Positions 9,436 to 28,988 of a stretch of 35,933 nucleotides of DNA are shown one piece after another (the first letter of the stretch is position 1; each line of letters opens with the position of its first letter). Below the pieces are notes generated by a model that saw nothing but the letters and a program-made list of their open reading frames with translations, made no database searches and was not told the DNA's origin. The position numbers and the translations under genes are program-made. This DNA comes from an uncultured bacterium (GTDB taxonomy: Bacteria; Bacteroidota; Bacteroidia; Sphingobacteriales; Sphingobacteriaceae), in NCBI GenBank assembly GCA_903838995.1, contig CAIMAP010000041.1:1-35933 (forward strand). Reading direction: 5' to 3'.

Positions 9436-11244
9436 ATGCAAAAAGTTAGAAATATCGCTATTATTGCCCATGTCGATCACGGGAAAACAACACTGGTAGA
9501 TAAAATTTTACATCAGACCAATTTATTTAGAGATAACCAAGAAACGGGAGATCTTATTCTAGATAATAACGATTTGGAGCGTGAAAGAGGGATTACCATC
9601 GTATCTAAAAACGTCTCAGTTCAATACAAAGACTATAAAATCAATATTATTGACACACCAGGTCACGCCGACTTTGGCGGAGAAGTAGAGCGTGTATTGA
9701 AAATGGCCGATGGTGTATTGCTTTTAGTCGATGCATTTGAAGGTGCTATGCCACAAACTAGATTTGTAACGCAAAAGGCATTGTCTTTAGGCTTAAAGCC
9801 AATTGTAATTATTAATAAAGTAGACAAAGAAAACTGCCGCCCCGAGGAAGTGCAGGAATCTATATTTGAATTATTCTTTAACCTAGAAGCGACCGAAGAG
9901 CAATTGGATTTTCCAACGCTATACGGATCTTCTAAACAAGGTTGGATGAGCACAGATTACAAGCAAATAACAGAAGACATTACGCCTTTATTAGATGCGG
10001 TATTAGAGTTTATTCCAGAGCCACCAGACAATCCGGGTACATTGCAAATGCAAATTACCTCATTAGACTATTCTTCTTTTGTGGGAAGGATTGCTATTGG
10101 TCGTGTTGCGCGTGGAACGATCAAAGAAAACATGCCAGTTTCTTTAATGAAGAAAGATGGTAAAATTGTTAAGTCGAGAATTAAAGAACTATATACATTC
10201 GTTGGATTGGGTAAAGTGAAGGTGGAAGAAGTACACAATGGTGATATCTGCGCAGTTGTTGGTATTGAAGGATTTGAAATTGGTGATACCATTTCAGATT
10301 TTGAAAATCCAGAAGCATTGGCAGTAATTAAAATTGATGAGCCAACCATGAATATGTTGTTCACGATTAATAACTCGCCATTTTTTGGTAAAGAAGGAAA
10401 GTTTGTAACCTCTCGTCACCTTCGTGATCGATTGATGAAGGAGATGGAAAAAAACTTAGCTTTAAGAGTAGAAGAAACAGCCTCTCCAGATTCTTTATTA
10501 GTTTATGGCCGTGGAATTTTGCATTTATCGGTTTTGATCGAAACCATGCGCCGCGAAGGCTATGAATTACAAGTTGGACAGCCACAAGTAATTATTAAAG
10601 AAATTGATGGTAAGAAATGCGAGCCTATCGAAACTTTAATAGTAGACGTACCTGCCGAAGTTTCTGGTAAAGTAATCGAATTGGTTACCCAAAGAAAAGG
10701 TGATTTATTAGTAATGGAGCCAAAAGGAGATTTACAACATTTAGAATTTGATATTCCTGCAAGAGGCATTATAGGTTTAAGAAATAATGTTTTAACTGCA
10801 ACGGCTGGAGAAGCAATCATGGCACATCGTTTCAAGGCATATGAGCCTTGGAAAGGTGATATTCCATCTAGATCTTCTGGCGTATTAATTTCCATGGATA
10901 AAGGTTCGGCAACGGCTTACCGTATTGATAAATTACAAGATCGCGGAAGATTTTTCGTAAATTCTGGAGAAGAAGTTTACCAAGGAATGATTATCGGAGA
11001 AAATAGCCGTGATTCTGACATGACGGTAAATATTACCGAAGGAAAGCAATTAACAAACTTCCGAACTACCAGTAAAGATGATGCAACACGCATTGCCCCA
11101 GCAACCAAGTTTTCTTTAGAGGAAGCAATGGAATATATTCAATGGGACGAATATGTAGAGATTACGCCAGTCTCTATGCGTTTACGTAAAATATACTTAA
11201 CAGAACAAGAGCGCACCAACGCTAAAAAGAAAAGCGGAAATTAA
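9436..11244 (+). CDS. typA: Translational GTPase TypA/BipA
   Basis: This ribosome-associated GTPase of the EF-G-like group is involved in 50S assembly and stress adaptation. G motifs are visible: AHVDHGKT (11-18), ERGITI (about 50-55), DTPGH (73-77), NKVD (127-130) and GSSKQGW as G5. The later domains contain the BipA-type stretches GRGILHLSVLIE and DIPARGIIGLRN. Its 602 residues are the standard length. It is transcribed alone: a -7 box precedes it and a strong intrinsic terminator follows 21 bases after the stop. Confidence 0.96.
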   Translation: MQKVRNIAIIAHVDHGKTTLVDKILHQTNLFRDNQETGDLILDNNDLERERGITIVSKNVSVQYKDYKINIIDTPGHADFGGEVERVLKMADGVLLLVDAFEGAMPQTRFVTQKALSLGLKPIVIINKVDKENCRPEEVQESIFELFFNLEATEEQLDFPTLYGSSKQGWMSTDYKQITEDITPLLDAVLEFIPEPPDNPGTLQMQITSLDYSSFVGRIAIGRVARGTIKENMPVSLMKKDGKIVKSRIKELYTFVGLGKVKVEEVHNGDICAVVGIEGFEIGDTISDFENPEALAVIKIDEPTMNMLFTINNSPFFGKEGKFVTSRHLRDRLMKEMEKNLALRVEETASPDSLLVYGRGILHLSVLIETMRREGYELQVGQPQVIIKEIDGKKCEPIETLIVDVPAEVSGKVIELVTQRKGDLLVMEPKGDLQHLEFDIPARGIIGLRNNVLTATAGEAIMAHRFKAYEPWKGDIPSRSSGVLISMDKGSATAYRIDKLQDRGRFFVNSGEEVYQGMIIGENSRDSDMTVNITEGKQLTNFRTTSKDDATRIAPATKFSLEEAMEYIQWDEYVEITPVSMRLRKIYLTEQERTNAKKKSGN

Positions 11245-11265: not shown

Positions 11266-11298
11266 AAGCGATACGGCTATGGCTGTATCGCTTTTTTT
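11266..11298 (+). terminator. Rho-independent terminator of typA
   Basis: AAGCGATAC (11266-11274) pairs perfectly with GTATCGCTT (11285-11293) across a 10-base loop and is followed by a T run to 11298. It separates typA from murF. Confidence 0.9.
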
Positions 11299-11325
11299 AT
11301 TAAGTTTGATTTGCAGCCGCATTCC

Positions 11326-11354
11326 TTTGCAAATCGAAGGCTTGCGCAATTTTG
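11326..11354 (+). promoter_or_regulatory. murF promoter (TTTG-N17-CAATTTTG)
   Basis: TTTG at 11326-11329 is followed after exactly 17 bases by CAATTTTG at 11347-11354, close to the Bacteroidota consensus TTTG-N17-TAnnTTTG (one mismatch in the -7 box). The last G lies four bases before the murF ATG, so the expected transcript start falls at the A of the ATG itself. This also argues against the upstream in-frame TTG at 11311 as start codon. Confidence 0.6.
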
Positions 11355-11358
11355 TAAA

Positions 11359-12672
11359 ATGAAAGCAACCATTGAATTAATTTACGAAAAGTATCTCCAA
11401 TTTCCGACGGTGGCAACCGACACGCGAACGGTAAAAGCCAATTCGATTTTTTTTGCATTAAAGGGAGCTAACTTTAATGGCAACGAATTTGCTGCACAGG
11501 CATTGGCCTCTGGCGCTGCCTATGCAGTAGTTGATCAAATCGAATTTGCTGTTAACGAACAATATTTATTAGTCGAGGATGTTTTAAAAACCTTACAAGC
11601 TTTAGCCAATCATCATCGCAAACAGTTAAGTATTCCATTTTTAGGAATTACTGGGAGCAATGGCAAAACAACATCAAAAGAATTAATCAATGCAGTGCTT
11701 GCTAAAAAATTCCAAACGCTGGCAACATTTGGAAATTTAAATAACCACATTGGCGTTCCATTAACTTTACTTGGTATCCATGCTTCTCATCAATTCGCCA
11801 TTATTGAGATGGGGGCAAATCATCAAAAAGAAATTGCCGAATTATGCGAAATAGCAGCGCCTACTTACGGTTTAATTTGCAATATAGGTAAAGCACACCT
11901 CGAAGGAATGGGCGGTTTTGAAGGTGTTAAAAAAACTAAAAAAGAATTATACGATTATATTGAATCGACCAATGGAACCATATTTGTAAACGCCGATGAT
12001 GCCATTACCATGGAGCTTTCAGCCGCTTTAAAGAATAAAATTTATTTCGGAAACAATACAGAAAGTTTATTAAGTGGCAGTATCGAATCACTTGCGCCAA
12101 TGTTATGTGTAGCCATCACTTTTAAAAAGTCTGCACAAACACATATTGTACAAACGCAGTTAGTGGGCGATTATAATTTGGCAAATATTTTAGCGGCAGC
12201 ATGTATCGGCGAATATTTTAAAGTGCCCGAACAAGAAATTATAGCTGCTATTGCAGGCTATACGCCAACCAATAATCGCTCACAAATAATGCAGACTGCC
12301 AACAATGAATTAATTATGGATGCTTACAATGCTAATCCTAGCAGTATGTTTGCAGCAGTCAAAAATTTTCAGCAATTAACAGCGCCAAATAAATATTTAA
12401 TATTGGGCGATATGTTTGAACTAGGCGAAGAGAGTATTGCAGAACACCAAGCAATAGTATCGCTAGTTTCGGAATTAAAATTCGAAAAAGTAATTTTTGT
12501 TGGCAATGATTTTTATCAAGCAGCAAACGCAAATAAAATGTTAAATTTTCATTTCTTTGAAAGCACAGCCAGCGCCTCAGATTATCTGTTAGAAAATAGC
12601 ATTACCGCACATACTATATTAATAAAGGGTTCTAGGGGAATGAAACTAGAAAGCCTATTGCCATTATTGTAA
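11359..12672 (+). CDS. murF: UDP-N-acetylmuramoyl-tripeptide--D-alanyl-D-alanine ligase
   Basis: This cytoplasmic Mur ligase adds D-Ala-D-Ala to the UDP-MurNAc-tripeptide, the last soluble step of peptidoglycan precursor synthesis. The ATP-binding loop is GITGSNGKTT (96-105), followed by IIEMGANHQKEIA and the central-to-C-terminal motif DAYNANPSSM typical of MurF. Its 437 residues are normal. It stands alone rather than inside a division/cell-wall cluster, between the typA terminator and a convergent operon. Its TAA directly abuts the stop of the opposing gene (12672/12673). Confidence 0.95.
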   Translation: MKATIELIYEKYLQFPTVATDTRTVKANSIFFALKGANFNGNEFAAQALASGAAYAVVDQIEFAVNEQYLLVEDVLKTLQALANHHRKQLSIPFLGITGSNGKTTSKELINAVLAKKFQTLATFGNLNNHIGVPLTLLGIHASHQFAIIEMGANHQKEIAELCEIAAPTYGLICNIGKAHLEGMGGFEGVKKTKKELYDYIESTNGTIFVNADDAITMELSAALKNKIYFGNNTESLLSGSIESLAPMLCVAITFKKSAQTHIVQTQLVGDYNLANILAAACIGEYFKVPEQEIIAAIAGYTPTNNRSQIMQTANNELIMDAYNANPSSMFAAVKNFQQLTAPNKYLILGDMFELGEESIAEHQAIVSLVSELKFEKVIFVGNDFYQAANANKMLNFHFFESTASASDYLLENSITAHTILIKGSRGMKLESLLPLL

Positions 12673-15780: not shown

Positions 15781-16923
15781 TTATTCGTTTATTGTTAACT
15801 GCGAATTTACATTTTTCAATTGTAAATTTCTCATCATCTGAATACTGAGGTCCAAAAACATGATTTTTGGGTTCGCATTGCGTTCTATATGATAAATAGC
15901 CTGCTCAAAACCTTTGATAATGAGTGGCGCATTTTCAAAATTAATGGTATTTGCCAGTTTGTTGAGTTCAAAATGTTTGCTTTCAAACTTGATAATACTC
16001 GCTTGGTCTAGATTGACCATTAAACAGTCTCTGACTACTTGCAAGCCAAATCTTAATAAGCTTTTTTGATTTTCTCTTCCAAAACGAGCGTTGGCTACTT
16101 GCTCAATCCAATCGTTTATTTCCACCCCTTTTCTGCCATAACAAAGCCTAAACCATTGAATAAACAAGCTTTCCAAATCATCATCGTCTTCGGCTAATAA
16201 TTGTTGTGCAGCAGCAATGTTGCCATTTGCTAAATAAGCTATTCTTCCCGCTTTTTCTTGTGGGCAGCCATTGTCTATTAAATAAGCTTTGAGCTCTTCA
16301 TCTGCTAATTTTGGAATTTTAATTAATTGTGTTCGCGAGAGAATCGTTGCTAATATTTGCTCATAGTTTTCGGCAATTAAAATAAATAGGGTTTTAGCTG
16401 GAGGCTCTTCAATTAATTTCAATAAAGAATTTCCGGCGGCTCCTAAGTATTCTGGTAACCATATTAAAATAATTTTATATTCAGCTTCAAAAGATTTCAA
16501 TACCAATTTTTGAATAATAGCATGGCATTCTGCGATATTAATATTTGGCTGTTTATTTTCTGCATCTAGGTATTCCATCCATTGTTCTATACCCATGAAA
16601 GGGTTTTCTGCAATGGCGTTGCGCCATTCTTTAATATAGTTTACAGCTGTTTCGGCCGATCCTTTAGAAATAAAAGGATAACTAAAATGTAAATCTGGAT
16701 GTATGAGTTTTTGGTATTTATTACATGAAGAACATTTGCCACAACTGTCGTCTGGTAGTTTTTCTAAACAAGAAATATATTGTGCATACGCTAAGGCTAA
16801 AGCCAAACTTCCGCTTCCTTCTGGTCCAAGAAATAATTGCGCATGACTAATGCGCGCTTCATTTACAGAATTAACTAATCTTTTTTTGACGGCTTGCTGA
16901 CCCGGAATATCTTTAAAAAGCAT
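15781..16923 (-). CDS. holB: DNA polymerase III delta-prime subunit (clamp loader)
   Basis: This AAA+ clamp-loader subunit has a zinc-binding set Cys52, Cys61, Cys64 and Cys67 (CGKCSSCNKY). The Walker A position reads GPEGSGS (33-39), lacking the catalytic Lys. This fits delta-prime, which does not hydrolyse ATP, rather than DnaX. The sensor-1/SRC position reads LSRTQ. At 380 residues it is slightly longer than E. coli HolB. It is the first gene of a six-gene minus-strand run (holB, ricT, gldH, sigma, anti-sigma, CpxP-like) and is divergent from ruvX across a 121-base gap. Confidence 0.9.
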   Translation of the reverse strand: MLFKDIPGQQAVKKRLVNSVNEARISHAQLFLGPEGSGSLALALAYAQYISCLEKLPDDSCGKCSSCNKYQKLIHPDLHFSYPFISKGSAETAVNYIKEWRNAIAENPFMGIEQWMEYLDAENKQPNINIAECHAIIQKLVLKSFEAEYKIILIWLPEYLGAAGNSLLKLIEEPPAKTLFILIAENYEQILATILSRTQLIKIPKLADEELKAYLIDNGCPQEKAGRIAYLANGNIAAAQQLLAEDDDDLESLFIQWFRLCYGRKGVEINDWIEQVANARFGRENQKSLLRFGLQVVRDCLMVNLDQASIIKFESKHFELNKLANTINFENAPLIIKGFEQAIYHIERNANPKIMFLDLSIQMMRNLQLKNVNSQLTINE

Positions 16924-17032
16924 GCGGCAATTTAAGAATTTTAGCCCGATAAGCCAACCACATCCCGTAATTTATAAACCCCTTTCTTATTAAATAATAT
17001 AAATAAAAAGTTTAAAAATGTTGGAATGCGAT

Positions 17033-17040
17033 TATCTTTG
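17033..17040 (+). promoter_or_regulatory. ruvX promoter -7 box (TATCTTTG)
   Basis: This is an exact TAnnTTTG match. It ends four bases before the ATG at 17045, so the transcript should begin at or next to the start codon. The -33 element is weak: TTTA at 17011-17014, 18 bases upstream. This also argues against the in-frame ATG at 17018, which would lie upstream of the transcript start. Confidence 0.6.
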
Positions 17041-17044
17041 CAGC

Positions 17045-17461
17045 ATGGGAAGATGGATGGCATTCGATTATGGTACAAAACGAACGGGGATAGCCGTAAC
17101 GGATCCATTGAATATCATTGCAACAGGCCTAGCCACCATTGCAAGCGAAGCGCTGCTGGATTTTATCAAAAAATATATATCAACAGAGCAAGTGTCCATT
17201 TTTGTGGTAGGAGAACCTAAGCAAATGGACAATACGCCATCAATGTCTGCGCAAAGCATTACAAATTTTGTTGCGCAATTGAATGCGGCATTTCCTGCAA
17301 TCCCAGTAAAAAGAATTGATGAAAGATTTACTTCTAAAATGGCATCACAAGTAATTGCCCAAAGCGGAAAATCTAAAAAAGAAAGAGAAAAAAAAGAACA
17401 TATTGATTTAGTAAGTGCAACCATAATATTGCAGTCTTATATGGAATCAACTAGTAATTAA
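17045..17461 (+). CDS. ruvX: Putative pre-16S rRNA nuclease / Holliday junction resolvase-like (YqgF/RuvX)
   Basis: This RNase H-fold protein of 138 residues is the usual family length. Conserved acidic and motif residues are AFDYGTKRTGIAV (Asp8), VVGEPKQMD, DERFTS (Asp92, Glu93) and HIDLVSA (Asp121). In E. coli YqgF acts in 16S rRNA 5' end maturation. I chose ATG 17045 (MGRWMAFDYG) because it fits the family length and the promoter box directly before it. An in-frame ATG at 17018 adds nine residues. def follows after five bases, so the two are likely cotranscribed. Confidence 0.92.
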   Translation: MGRWMAFDYGTKRTGIAVTDPLNIIATGLATIASEALLDFIKKYISTEQVSIFVVGEPKQMDNTPSMSAQSITNFVAQLNAAFPAIPVKRIDERFTSKMASQVIAQSGKSKKEREKKEHIDLVSATIILQSYMESTSN

Positions 17462-18759: not shown

Positions 18760-19053
18760 TTAGTTTCTTAATCGTTCGGGAAGAACTGCATTCGGGTCGT
18801 CGGCATCGGTAATGTTCAGCGCTTCAACCGAAGTTATTTCTGGTATCGCACGCTTTAAAGCTTGTTCAACGCCGGCTTTCAAAGTCATAATACTCATTGG
18901 GCAAGAACCACAAGCACCCAATAGTTTTAATTTAACGACCATGTCGTCTGTCACTTCGTGAAGTGCCACATTTCCACCATCTGCTTCTAAGTAGGGTCTT
19001 ATTTGGTCTAGTGCATTTTCAATGCGCTCTATTAATTCTGGGCTTGTGTTCAT
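18760..19053 (-). CDS. NifU C-terminal domain protein (Nfu-type Fe-S carrier)
   Basis: This 97-residue protein is essentially one NifU C-terminal domain: [17 protein letters not shown], then [20 protein letters not shown] with Cys48 and Cys51. Nfu proteins hold a [4Fe-4S] cluster across a dimer through this CxxC and pass it to target enzymes. It follows mrp, another Fe-S cluster carrier, by 44 bases on the same strand. A -7 box in that gap suggests it can also be transcribed separately. Confidence 0.93.
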
Positions 19054-20230: not shown

Positions 20231-20611
20231 TTATAAGCTAAGGTGAATGTGACTGCTTTTGCTGCTCGAATTGCCAGCATCGTCTTCGGCAACAATATCA
20301 AAATTAACAAAGGTGTAAGCGCTATCATTCATGATAAAAAAAGTATCAATGCTAGCCATTTTATTATTTGGTTTAAATGACATATTAAGCAAGTCTTGGC
20401 CAGTTGCTAAATATAATCGCAAGCTAGTTGCTGTAATTAGGCCATTGTCAGAAAAATTAATTTTGAAAAAAGCAGTATCGTTAAAATTGTAAACCTGATG
20501 ATTGAAGGGAGAAATTTTAGTAATCACCACCGCTGGGTCATTATTATTAGCCTCTTCGCAACTGAAAAGCAAAAGACTACACCCGATGATTATAAAAAAT
20601 AAATATTTCAT
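20231..20611 (-). CDS. Small surface lipoprotein, unknown function
   Basis: This 126-residue lipoprotein has a signal peptide ending LLLFSC, with the lipidated Cys at 18. An acidic stretch (EEANNND) follows; such stretches after the Cys are typical of lipoprotein surface-export signals in this phylum. The rest looks like one beta-sandwich domain: ISPFNHQVYNFNDTAFFKINFSD, LRLYLATG and the end VAEDDAGNSSSKSS. This resembles the Ig-like/DUF4625 group, but that assignment is not certain. It is divergent from the transglycosylase gene and upstream of mrp on the same strand. Confidence 0.75.
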   Translation of the reverse strand: MKYLFFIIIGCSLLLFSCEEANNNDPAVVITKISPFNHQVYNFNDTAFFKINFSDNGLITATSLRLYLATGQDLLNMSFKPNNKMASIDTFFIMNDSAYTFVNFDIVAEDDAGNSSSKSSHIHLSL

Positions 20612-24261: not shown

Positions 24262-27200
24262 ATGAGCAAGTTTATTTTTAATATTGGTGCAAAAAAAATA
24301 TCATTGACTTTTGTCGTTTTGTTTTTTTCAACAGCTCTTTTTTCTCAAATTACCGTTAACTCTTCGACTGGAACAACCACACCTACAACCTATACTACGT
24401 TGAAGGCTAGTTTTGATGCAATCAATTTAGGTACACATACCGGTGTAATTTTAATTTCCGTTACAGGCAATACTACAGAAACAAACAGCTGTGTATTAAA
24501 TGCATCTGGCACCGGATCTTCAAATTATTCGAGTATTAAAATAACCCCAAATGGTGGCAGCACAAGGGTTGTGTCTGGAGCTATAACTGCAGGCCTTCCG
24601 CTGATAGACTTAAACGGTGCAGATAATGTAACTATAAACGGGCTAGCTATTAATGGGGATTCATTATCGATTGTTAATACAACAGTAAGTACTACGACAG
24701 GGACAAGTACTATTAGATTCATTGCAGGTGCAACAAATAACCTAATAACCAATTGTAGCATCTTGGGTTCAACAACGAGTTCAACAAGTGGCGTGATATT
24801 TTTTAGTACAGATGCTTCCACCGGCGGCAGTGGCAATGATTTAAATAAAGTTCGAAACAATATCATTGCAAATGCTACGGCCACAGCACCTAAGTATGGT
24901 GTTTATTCAGCTGGTACAACTGCAAAAGAAAACAGTCAAAATAGTATTGATAGTAATTTTATTTTCAATTTTCATACAAGTACAGGAGCTGCAGGAGTAT
25001 ACTTTACAAGTAATACAACTAATTGTAGTGTATCAAATAATCATTTTTATCAAACTACGAATAGAAGTGTTTCGGGCTCTTATTATGGAATTTACCTTTC
25101 TAATACAACAGGATATTTTCAAGTATTGAACAACTATATTGGTGGAACAGGCCCCTATTGTACAGGCTTGCCTACAAAATTTAGTGGCTCAGTAATACTT
25201 CAGGCCATCTATATCGCTTCAAGTGCTACAGCAATTTCAAGCATTCAGGGTAATCATATTTCAAATATTGAAATCAGTACCACTTCAACAAGTATCGTTC
25301 AAGCGTTGCTTTATGCTCAAGCAGGAAAATTATTTATTGGTAACGTGATCGGAAATGTATTTGGTGACGACTTAATTAATGCTAGTATTAATTATACGAG
25401 TACTCCATCAAGTACAACTTTTTCTGTTATAGGATATGGAACGGGTACCTTCGATACAGTATTAGTTAAGAATAATATTATGGCGGGTATAACACTCGCA
25501 GGCACTGGTGGCATGAGTTTGAGGTGTATAGATATAACAGGTTCAACGGCTAAAAATATCATCGACGGAAATATTTTTGGTAGCTTAACTACGGCAAATA
25601 GTTTAAATAATAGCACCGCCAATTCTTTATTAGCTGTGATTAACAGAGGCACTACCGCTAATTTCGTGCACCAAATCATTAATAATAAGTTTGTCAATTT
25701 TTATTGTTTAAAAAATAACATACGGGCAATTAGTACTGGAGGTGCTACCACATGGAATGTTTCTAATAACGAAATTTATAATTTTTTAAATTCAAGTGTA
25801 ACATCGGGTACTGGCGCAAATGCAATTACCATTGCTATTAATTCAACAAGTACGGGCCCACTAAATCAAATTGTTTCGAATAATAAAATTTATAAATTGT
25901 ATAACGATGCAATAACAAGTACTACCGTAACTGCAATTTTTTGTGCAAACGCAACAACAGGCGGCACTAATAGAGTCGATCGAAATCTTATACATTCTTT
26001 AAACACTGCAGCCACGCAGGGTTCTACGATAAATGGTATAGAGGCAAATTCTGGAGGGTATATTTATTCAAACAATATGATAAGGCTTGGAATTGATGAA
26101 AATGGTGCGGCTATCACTAGTGCAAGTAACATTAATGGCATTCAAGAAGTTGCGGGAACAAATAATTTTTATTTTAATACTTTATACATTGGAGGAGCGG
26201 GAGTTGCCTCTGTTGCTGAAAAAACTGCTGCATTTAATAGTATTGCAACAACCGGAACAAGAAATATTATCAATAATATTTTTGCAAATAACAGAACAAA
26301 CGCAACAGGATTAGCAAGTCATTATGCTTTTTCAACCGCAACGGCAACGGGTTTAGCTTTTAAAAATAATGATTACTGGAACGCTAATGGTTTCTTAGCA
26401 AGACATATTTCAGCAGATGTAATTTCTATAGCAAATTATCGCTTACTATTTCCCTTAGATACTTTTAGTGTTAGTGTTGATCCGAATTTTATTAATGCTG
26501 ATGCTGCATCCTTTGATTTGCATATTTCGAATAGTTCTGTGCCAACATCTTTAGAGTCTGGCGGCAAAATAGTTTTAGTTAATGGCAGCCCTATAAATTT
26601 TGATTACGACGGCAATCTTAGACCTGGTCCTATTAATTCTACTTTGGGTGGAGGCAGTATGCCAGATATCGGCGCAGATGAATTTGATGGCATTCCTTTT
26701 ATTGCATGTGCAACTCCTATTGCCGGAGACGCTATAACAAGTGACACTGTTTCTTGTAATGGAGCAACTGTTCAATTAAGTTTAAGCGGAAGCACAACCG
26801 TTGGTAATACCAATATATATCAATGGGAAAAATCTATCAATGGTGTTAATTATTCAAATATTGCTAACGCAAATACGAGCTCAGTCAATGTTTTTGGTAT
26901 TACTGCTAATACTTATTTTAGGTGTAAAATAACTTGTACCATTGGACAAACTTCTAGCACTTCGAATCCTTGTTTAGTTGTTTATAGAAACACAGCAATC
27001 ACTTCTATTTTAAATGATACCTTATGTGGCCCTGGTATAGCAACTCTAACTGTGGTAGCAAATAATGGAATTATTAATTGGTACGAAAATCTTGCTAGCA
27101 CTGTTCCCATTTCAACGGGCAATCAATTAATTACACCAATTTTAACTGCAGCTAAAACATATTATGCAGAGGCTATTTATCAAAATTGTAAAAGCTCAAA

Positions 27201-28407
27201 AGTTAGCGTAAATGTTATTTTTAACACTTTACCAATTATTACTTTAGTACAAAATGATTCTATTTGTCAGGGAGGCATCATTACATTGACTGCAGCCTCA
27301 GACAAAGGGCAAATCAAATGGTACGAATCGGCAACAAGTTCATTGCCGCTATTTATCGGAAGTGTTTTCACTACGCCGTTTATCACAGCTAGCCAATCTT
27401 ATTATGTAGAGCCAGTATCGGGTAATTGTGTAGGACTAAGGGTTCCAGTACAGGCCAAAGTAATAAGCCCGCCATCTATTGTTCAAACTTCTTCGAAACT
27501 TGATTCTGTATGCGGCGCAAAATCTTTAAAGATTTTTGCTAAGGCTGATAAGGGAACAATTAATTGGTTTGCATCAATGAATGCGATTACGCCATTTGCA
27601 AATACAGATACAATATTATTACAAGTTACAAGTGATACAACTGTTTACGCTGAAGCATTGGCGGGAAACTGTGCTAGTACTAGAGAAGCCTTTGTTATAA
27701 AAGCCAATCAAATTCCAGTTGTTGATTCAATTTTTGGTGCTGCAGCCTGTGCCGGAAATACTTTGCAATTAAGAGCGCTAAGTTCATCAGGTGAAATTAG
27801 TTGGTTCGGTTCAGCACAAGGAAACAATTTATTAGCTGTTGGAAATATTTTCACTACCCCTATATTAGATAGTACTTTTAAATATTATATTGAAAGCAGC
27901 AGCAAGGGCTGTAAAAGTAATAGATTAGAAGTAGTCGCAACAATTTTCCCGAAGCCAAATCCAAGTATTTCTCGTAAACTCGATACACTTTTAGTTGATA
28001 AAAAATTCGATAGTTATTCGTGGTACAAAGACAATATTTTATTGCCTAGTGCATCTGCTGCATTTTTAAAACTGACTTCCTCAGGAAAATATAAAGTGTA
28101 TGTAACAGATAATCGTACTTGTACTGCTTATTCTAATGAGATTACCTACAATGTTAATGGAATTGACCTAAACGATGCGCATGACATTAAAGTCTATCCA
28201 AATCCATTTTCTACTGAACTAATGATAGAAAACATAGCCGCTGCTAATATTGAATTTACAGACATGCAAGGCAGGCTGATAAAAAGATTAGCATTTGCCA
28301 ATCGAATTTCACTTCAAGAAATACTACCAGGTATTTATTTTATTAGACTATTAGATGAAAACAATCAATTAATAGCTGTACAAAAAGTTGTTAAAATTGA
28401 ACAGTAA
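24262..28407 (+). CDS. Large secreted beta-helix/Ig-like protein with T9SS type A sorting domain
   Basis: This 1381-residue surface or secreted protein has a signal peptide (1-31, ending ALFSQ). A long Asn/Ser/Thr/Gly-rich region (about 50-810) has repeated xNxI and NNxI turns typical of right-handed beta-helices, closing with PDIGADEFDG. A Cys-containing Ig/PKD-like domain (about 815-910) is followed by four tandem Ig-like repeats of about 80 residues, each with a Cys pair and a W-Y/F core, starting near Cys922, 1002, 1084 and 1163. The tail is a T9SS type A sorting domain with KVYPNPFS (about 1310) and GIYFIRLLDE. The likely role is adhesion or surface binding; no enzyme motif is seen. The stop lies three bases from the gmhA stop. 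Confidence 0.88.
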   Translation: MSKFIFNIGAKKISLTFVVLFFSTALFSQITVNSSTGTTTPTTYTTLKASFDAINLGTHTGVILISVTGNTTETNSCVLNASGTGSSNYSSIKITPNGGSTRVVSGAITAGLPLIDLNGADNVTINGLAINGDSLSIVNTTVSTTTGTSTIRFIAGATNNLITNCSILGSTTSSTSGVIFFSTDASTGGSGNDLNKVRNNIIANATATAPKYGVYSAGTTAKENSQNSIDSNFIFNFHTSTGAAGVYFTSNTTNCSVSNNHFYQTTNRSVSGSYYGIYLSNTTGYFQVLNNYIGGTGPYCTGLPTKFSGSVILQAIYIASSATAISSIQGNHISNIEISTTSTSIVQALLYAQAGKLFIGNVIGNVFGDDLINASINYTSTPSSTTFSVIGYGTGTFDTVLVKNNIMAGITLAGTGGMSLRCIDITGSTAKNIIDGNIFGSLTTANSLNNSTANSLLAVINRGTTANFVHQIINNKFVNFYCLKNNIRAISTGGATTWNVSNNEIYNFLNSSVTSGTGANAITIAINSTSTGPLNQIVSNNKIYKLYNDAITSTTVTAIFCANATTGGTNRVDRNLIHSLNTAATQGSTINGIEANSGGYIYSNNMIRLGIDENGAAITSASNINGIQEVAGTNNFYFNTLYIGGAGVASVAEKTAAFNSIATTGTRNIINNIFANNRTNATGLASHYAFSTATATGLAFKNNDYWNANGFLARHISADVISIANYRLLFPLDTFSVSVDPNFINADAASFDLHISNSSVPTSLESGGKIVLVNGSPINFDYDGNLRPGPINSTLGGGSMPDIGADEFDGIPFIACATPIAGDAITSDTVSCNGATVQLSLSGSTTVGNTNIYQWEKSINGVNYSNIANANTSSVNVFGITANTYFRCKITCTIGQTSSTSNPCLVVYRNTAITSILNDTLCGPGIATLTVVANNGIINWYENLASTVPISTGNQLITPILTAAKTYYAEAIYQNCKSSKVSVNVIFNTLPIITLVQNDSICQGGIITLTAASDKGQIKWYESATSSLPLFIGSVFTTPFITASQSYYVEPVSGNCVGLRVPVQAKVISPPSIVQTSSKLDSVCGAKSLKIFAKADKGTINWFASMNAITPFANTDTILLQVTSDTTVYAEALAGNCASTREAFVIKANQIPVVDSIFGAAACAGNTLQLRALSSSGEISWFGSAQGNNLLAVGNIFTTPILDSTFKYYIESSSKGCKSNRLEVVATIFPKPNPSISRKLDTLLVDKKFDSYSWYKDNILLPSASAAFLKLTSSGKYKVYVTDNRTCTAYSNEITYNVNGIDLNDAHDIKVYPNPFSTELMIENIAAANIEFTDMQGRLIKRLAFANRISLQEILPGIYFIRLLDENNQLIAVQKVVKIEQ
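27010..27966 (+). repeat. Four tandem coding repeats (about 240 bases each) for Ig-like modules
   Basis: The first Cys codons of the modules are at 27025, 27265, 27511 and 27748, giving periods of 240, 246 and 237 bases (80, 82 and 79 residues). Each unit has a Cys near its start, a G-x-I-x-W-Y/F core, an aromatic-rich strand such as TYYAEA or SYYVEP, and a second Cys near its end. DNA identity between units is low, so this is an old duplication seen mainly at protein level. Confidence 0.8.
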
Positions 28408-28410
28408 TTC

Positions 28411-28977
28411 TTATTGATGTCTTTCGATGAAATCGATTAAGGAGTGAATTACTTTGATATGAATTTCTTGCGCCCTGTCTGCATAATCAGATTTGGGTGC
28501 ACGAATTTCTACATCGGCTAAGCCAGCTAATTGTCCGCCATCTTTTCCAGTAAGACAAACAACATGCACGCCTTTTGATTTAGCAGTTGCTACTGCATTG
28601 ATAATATTTTTTGAATTGCCCGAAGTACTGATGCCTACTAATACATCCCCTTCGTTTGCCAATGCTTCTAAGTATCTTGAAAAAATAAAATCGTAACCAT
28701 AATCATTTCCTACACAAGAAATATGTGAAGGATCCGAAATCGAAACGGCAGCTAAGGCTTTGCGATCATTTCTATATCTGCCACTCAGCTCTTCTGCAAA
28801 ATGCATCGCGTCGCACATAGAACCGCCATTGCCACAAGAAATAATTTTCTTGCCATTTGCCAAAGCGCTTACCATGAGTTGGCCAGCAGCTTCGATAGCT
28901 TGTAAATTTTTTTCGTCTGCAATAAATGCTGCTAACACCGATTGCGCTTCTGTGAAATGTTTTTTGATCGCGTCCAT
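28411..28977 (-). CDS. gmhA: Phosphoheptose isomerase (sedoheptulose-7-phosphate isomerase)
   Basis: This 188-residue SIS-domain enzyme converts sedoheptulose 7-phosphate to D-glycero-D-manno-heptose 7-phosphate, the first step towards LPS core or S-layer heptose. Family features are [20 protein letters not shown] (catalytic Glu, metal-site His), [11 protein letters not shown] and QEIHIKVIH. The sequence is strikingly close to what I recall of the enterobacterial enzyme. I choose ATG 28977: the TTG six bases upstream (28983) is part of the -7 promoter box. No other heptose gene is in the window. It is convergent with the T9SS protein and divergent from the lipid kinase. Confidence 0.92.
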
Positions 28978-28980
28978 ATT

Positions 28981-28988
28981 CAAAAGTA
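28981..28988 (-). promoter_or_regulatory. gmhA promoter -7 box (TACTTTTG)
   Basis: On the minus strand this is an exact TAnnTTTG match. Its last G (28981) is three bases before the gmhA ATG (28977-28975), so transcription should start at the ATG. No convincing -33 TTTG is seen at the expected distance. Confidence 0.55.

Follow-up and report, generated by a model that had tools for sequence, protein, structure and literature searches.

A near-consensus box before murF and a predicted leaderless minority of genes in a Sphingobacteriaceae draft genome

In Flavobacterium johnsoniae, RNA-seq placed the promoter box TAHHTTTG at positions -12 to -5, with T-12, A-11, T-8, T-7, T-6 and G-5 nearly invariant and the transcript starting 4-5 bases further on (PMC6847099). 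Leaders of 10 nt or less accounted for 13% in this species (PMC6847099) and 5' UTRs under 10 nt for 3.7% in Bacteroides thetaiotaomicron (PMC7366714). In Flavobacterium psychrophilum, 5.5% of the mapped mRNAs were leaderless, and a promoter motif of this species, SM5, reads TAnnTTGY (PMC9723704). A survey that considered only Pribnow-type promoters found leaderless genes in one of 37 Bacteroidetes/Chlorobi genomes, a limitation named by the survey itself (PMC3160421); a sigma-70 scan is irrelevant to Bacteroidota. Our literature search, which covered openly licensed papers only, found no transcript-start map for Sphingobacteriaceae.

The boxes enriched in the genome studied here are like those of the sigma-ABfr promoter of F. 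johnsoniae (PMC6847099), and so is the A+T-rich stretch at about -16 to -21. G at -10 or -9 is likewise excluded (TANGTTTG and TAGHTTTG were not enriched). A TTG at about -33 is faintly visible in this genome at spacing 19-20, whereas the F. johnsoniae study showed it far less clearly (PMC6847099). The site proposed as the murF promoter departs from the sigma-ABfr pattern by a C at -12.

The window, i.e. the whole analysed stretch of 35,933 nucleotides, corresponds to contig C41 in a draft genome of 2.0 Mb. murF (11359..12672, + strand, ATG at 11359) encodes a MurF protein of 437 aa, and its named relatives come from uncultured freshwater or lake bins and one Sphingobacteriaceae bin. The upstream neighbour typA (bipA; 9436..11244, + strand) was assigned by eye from the sequence. 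It is followed by an intrinsic terminator (11266..11293, + strand; 12-bp stem plus T-run, -18.1 kcal/mol, z -6.5), which does not differ between the seven congeneric copies over the length available for each. Since this strong terminator lies 65 bases before the murF ATG, a dedicated murF promoter behind it is confined to those 65 bases. A repeated element was rejected as an explanation of the terminator, as within the DNA compared its core occurred only between typA and murF. In the G005 bin, a second murF start (87% identical, with the same typA terminator) lies at a contig edge (L176 5700-5958, end of C6) and probably reflects a mixed strain or an assembly edge. Elsewhere in the window, positions 24262-28407 encode, on a by-eye reading, a very large secreted repeat protein, the C-terminal stretch of which resembles a type IX secretion sorting domain.

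The site adjoining the murF start codon

An earlier note had assigned to murF a promoter of exact fit that would start the mRNA at the A of the ATG. The letters and distances were as described: TTTG (11326..11329, + strand), the proposed -33 element, is followed after 17 bases by the proposed -7 box CAATTTTG (11347..11354, + strand), then by TAAA and the ATG, leaving four bases between box and start codon. The exact fit was wrong, since C replaces the near-invariant T at -12 and the -33 spacing is off. Upstream of 85 perfect boxes of the same genome, TTG was commonest at spacing 19-20 (7 and 5 sites), while at spacing 17 TTG occurred once and TTTG never; the murF site has 17 bases in the window and 16 in three relatives. 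These spacer counts, like the position weights used below, rest on a larger own-genome sample including small contigs chosen from box-match lists. The spacer of the murF site is also G+C-rich, whereas real promoters are A+T-rich there.

Seven murF leaders were compared within the genus, six of them with an alignable site. The window has CAATTTTG there, while three copies share CAATATTG and two share CAAAATTG. The combination of T at -12 and A at -11 expected of a sigma-A box is absent: all six copies carry C at -12, and five have lost the second core T (-8). TTTG at -8 to -5 occurs in the window only, the five relatives having ATTG, a variant that was not enriched. No similar site precedes murF in G002, the most distant congener (MurF 74% identical), and none of the seven leaders has a consensus box at this site. 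Thus, four sequence tests (-12 base, -33 spacing, spacer composition and conservation) spoke against a leaderless murF mRNA. In four more distant Bacteroidota (L063, L068, L086 and L093) a perfect TAHHTTTG stands exactly 4 bases before the murF start; three of these are labelled Chitinophagaceae or with genera that we take to be assigned there. In those four murF may be leaderless, though probably not here.

The lack of a Shine-Dalgarno site, to which the earlier note had also pointed, carries no weight, because Bacteroidota mRNAs are generally without such sites whether or not they have a leader (PMC6847099, PMC3155529). The heptamer TTGTAAA abutting the murF ATG is conserved in six of the seven copies and could be functional; a translation-initiation region would account for it as well, given the preference of the phylum for A-rich start sites (PMC6847099).

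Chance expectations were taken from control ATGs inside genes, with d denoting how many bases separate a box from the ATG. For the 373 genes on own contigs of at least 20 kb, boxes at d3-5 with exactly one wrong position were counted. Mismatches at -12 (1 observed vs 1.4 expected), -11 (1 vs 1.9), -8 (2 vs 1.5) and -7 (0 vs 0.8) stayed near expectation, and only two positions were enriched, -6 (9 vs 1.3) and -5 (12 vs 1.9); part of the excess at -5 may come from A+T-rich upstream DNA. The single gene with a mismatch at -12 only was murF itself. Defects at -12 and -8, those of murF, are hence too seldom tolerated to show. With VAHHTTTG the result was similar (2 at d3-5, 1.8-2.5 expected). Scored against a box profile of the same genome, the core weights of which were set by hand from the counts, murF reached -0.9, real boxes a median of 13.0 (fifth percentile 8.7) and gmhA 14.2; ruvX scored only 5.2 despite its perfect core because of the poor surroundings of its box. 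At the same distance, 7% of the control ATGs inside genes score at least as high as the murF site, so that about two such sites would arise by chance among the 30-odd genes of the window. Most likely CAATTTTG is a chance near-match and not a promoter.

Candidate sources of murF transcription

The best-conserved candidate for a murF -7 box is TAAGTTTG (11301..11308, + strand), directly behind the typA terminator. It is kept in all seven copies, in G002 as TATGTTTG, and the sequence running from the terminator through TTATTA(A/T)GTTTGATT hardly varies among them; between this block and the murF ATG, G002 is unalignable. Transcription from TAAGTTTG would start at about 11313 and give a leader of about 46 nt, compared with a predicted 26 nt or so from TATGTTTG in G002. 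The G at -9 of TAAGTTTG is atypical: such boxes are not enriched before genes (5 vs 3.3 expected), and G at this position is almost absent from F. johnsoniae promoters (PMC6847099). The box furthermore overlaps the tail of the typA terminator, and selection on the terminator itself may account for the conservation. Most likely murF would be transcribed with this leader from TAAGTTTG, with read-through of the typA terminator as a possible additional source.

The strongest competitor, which we consider unlikely though worth keeping in mind, is that murF lacks a dedicated sigma-A promoter and depends mainly on typA read-through or on another sigma factor, acting for example at the SM5-type AAnnTTGT at 11348-11355. 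Neither candidate box is a good consensus, and six of the seven copies preserve AAnnTTGT, which has the A, the TTG and the pyrimidine of TAnnTTGY and lacks only the first T (PMC9723704). However, the typA terminator is strong, and the variant without the first T is not enriched near starts (AAHHTTGY at d3-5, 2 observed vs 1.5-3.5 expected).

Boxes at leaderless distance in the window, the genus and related families

The arrangement at murF had been likened to that at ruvX and gmhA. Both of these genes indeed have perfect boxes, but murF, with its imperfect box, differs from them. At ruvX (box to ATG 17033..17047, + strand) the box TATCTTTG ends 4 bases before the ATG at 17045, and box and distance are kept in all four congeners; at gmhA (box to ATG 28975..28988, - strand) TACTTTTG ends 3 bases before the ATG at 28977 and is kept in G002. 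An in-frame ATG upstream of ruvX, at 17018, has ATG-TAG as its counterpart in G002, which argues against 17018 as the ruvX start. For gmhA, transcription would have to begin 3 bases past the box, one fewer than usual. Both genes combine a supported start codon with a conserved consensus -7 box at d3-5 and are predicted to be leaderless; in these two and others the box stands at the distance expected from known Bacteroidota leaderless mRNAs. Perfect boxes at leadered distances precede five other genes of the window (typA at 23 bases, dsbD 22, rsfS 19, the gene at 19053 19 and the gene at 20611 16), which indicates that the majority of genes are leadered. A further site, TAAATTGC-CGC-ATG before holB (16923-16935, - strand), fits the SM5 motif TAnnTTGY at leaderless distance.

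The conjecture that leaderless mRNAs are a general mode in this organism gained support, for a minority of genes, from counts in this genome, its genus and its family, in which perfect boxes were enriched 3-5 bases before ATGs. The genus sample comprised 803 genes unselected for boxes, from own contigs of at least 20 kb, G002 and G005; the first ATG of each ORF was taken as the start codon, and stretches of G167 were excluded as they had been picked near known matches. Perfect TAHHTTTG boxes numbered 8, 8, 4, 2 and 5 at d3 to d7, 13 over d8-13 and 55 over d14-32, i.e. a peak at d3-5, a dip at d8-13 and a leadered mode at d14-32. ruvX and gmhA belong to the peak. Coding ATGs predict 0.9 boxes at d3-5, where 20 were observed (P 1.6e-5 against the density at d8-13, 7e-4 against the leadered density), orthologs across the three sampled genomes not being independent. 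On the own contigs alone, 8 boxes were found at d3-5 where 0.5 were expected (P 0.004 and 0.04, respectively). In the genus sample, d3-7 accounts for about 25% of the net boxes within 60 bases, equivalent to 3% of the genes; a first own-genome sample with small contigs chosen from box-match lists had overstated the leaderless share (31%). This quarter of the consensus-box promoters exceeds the published maps, ours being a sequence prediction and not a mapped fraction. As leaderless Bacteroidota genes are already known, the share is only a mildly new point.

Perfect boxes at leaderless distance are well conserved. Seven genes have orthologs in the DNA compared, giving 13 comparisons. A perfect box recurred in every one, with its distance to the ATG unchanged in 12 and shifted by at most 2 bases in the other; six of the 13 are in G002, where the murF site is absent. 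For leadered boxes the rule was less strict, any box at d10-45 being accepted, and 22 of 22 comparisons kept one. Leaderless and leadered genes were also compared for A content at -3, which was uninformative.

Counts over the whole genome, independent of gene calls, gave 176, 151, 149 and 121 boxes at d3-5, d10-12, d22-24 and d60-62 (near vs far, P 8e-4). In the family of the window (f1, six genomes), the far control was exceeded by 63.5 sites per genome at d3-5 and by 12.8 at d22-24; several other families likewise had more boxes above background at d3-5 than at d22-24. The most sampled family (f26, 19 genomes) had the larger excess in the leadered bin (41-51 at d22-24 vs about 31-33 at d3-5), whereas family f43 had 39.5 sites per genome at d3-5 and 3.9 at d22-24, with a ratio of d3-5 boxes to those at the other tested distances of about 2.5 to 4:1. 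The eight genomes of f43 (e.g. G187, G195 and G153) together hold 481 boxes at d3-5 and 123, 196 and 165 elsewhere, the strongest leaderless signal seen. In G055, a 2.2-Mb genome of family f20, 215 boxes lie at d3-5 and 102-113 at the other distances.

It appears improbable to us that the d3-5 peak arose as an artefact, through wrong start codons or composition. An artefact is favoured by the use of the first ATG of each ORF as start codon, and by the modest size of the peak in the own genome by itself relative to the leadered density. Against this stand the retention of box and distance in all ortholog comparisons, the absence of a peak at control ATGs inside genes, and the same excess in many families by whole-genome counts untied to gene calls.

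Interpretation and meaning

Altogether, the account that we favour, with fair but limited confidence, combines a chance near-match at CAATTTTG, a leadered murF transcribed from TAAGTTTG and a separate, true leaderless minority class. In the genes of this class, among them ruvX, gmhA, a GAPDH-like gene and an MtaB-like gene, only 3-5 bases separate a consensus sigma-A -7 box from the ATG. Transcripts of these genes would begin with the A of the ATG, or no more than a few bases from it, and be translated as leaderless messages; from the sequences, their conservation and the statistics we infer both the transcription start sites and this mode of translation initiation. The converse reading, in which CAATTTTG works as a weak -7 box for sigma-A and the murF mRNA begins at the A of its ATG, is the least probable: its four-base distance fits the 4-5 bases measured in F. 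johnsoniae (PMC6847099), a real leaderless class exists in the genome and the nearby terminator would keep any murF-specific leader short, but the -12 C, the -8 T missing from most copies, the loss of the site in G002, the unenriched box class, the G+C-rich spacer and the wrong -33 distance all speak against it.

The case of murF cautions that a box found by eye and one letter off consensus is worthless here if neither conservation nor enrichment stands behind it. Boxes at leaderless distance offer a means of correcting start codons, as at ruvX. The conserved, probably leaderless genes provide a sequence-based list for testing how the ribosomes of this phylum, which hide their anti-Shine-Dalgarno sequence, load on a 5'-terminal AUG. 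On balance, we lean towards the view that leaderless initiation in Bacteroidota is lineage-dependent and sometimes a major mode; if so, the published Flavobacterium and Bacteroides maps would underestimate leaderless expression in the phylum.
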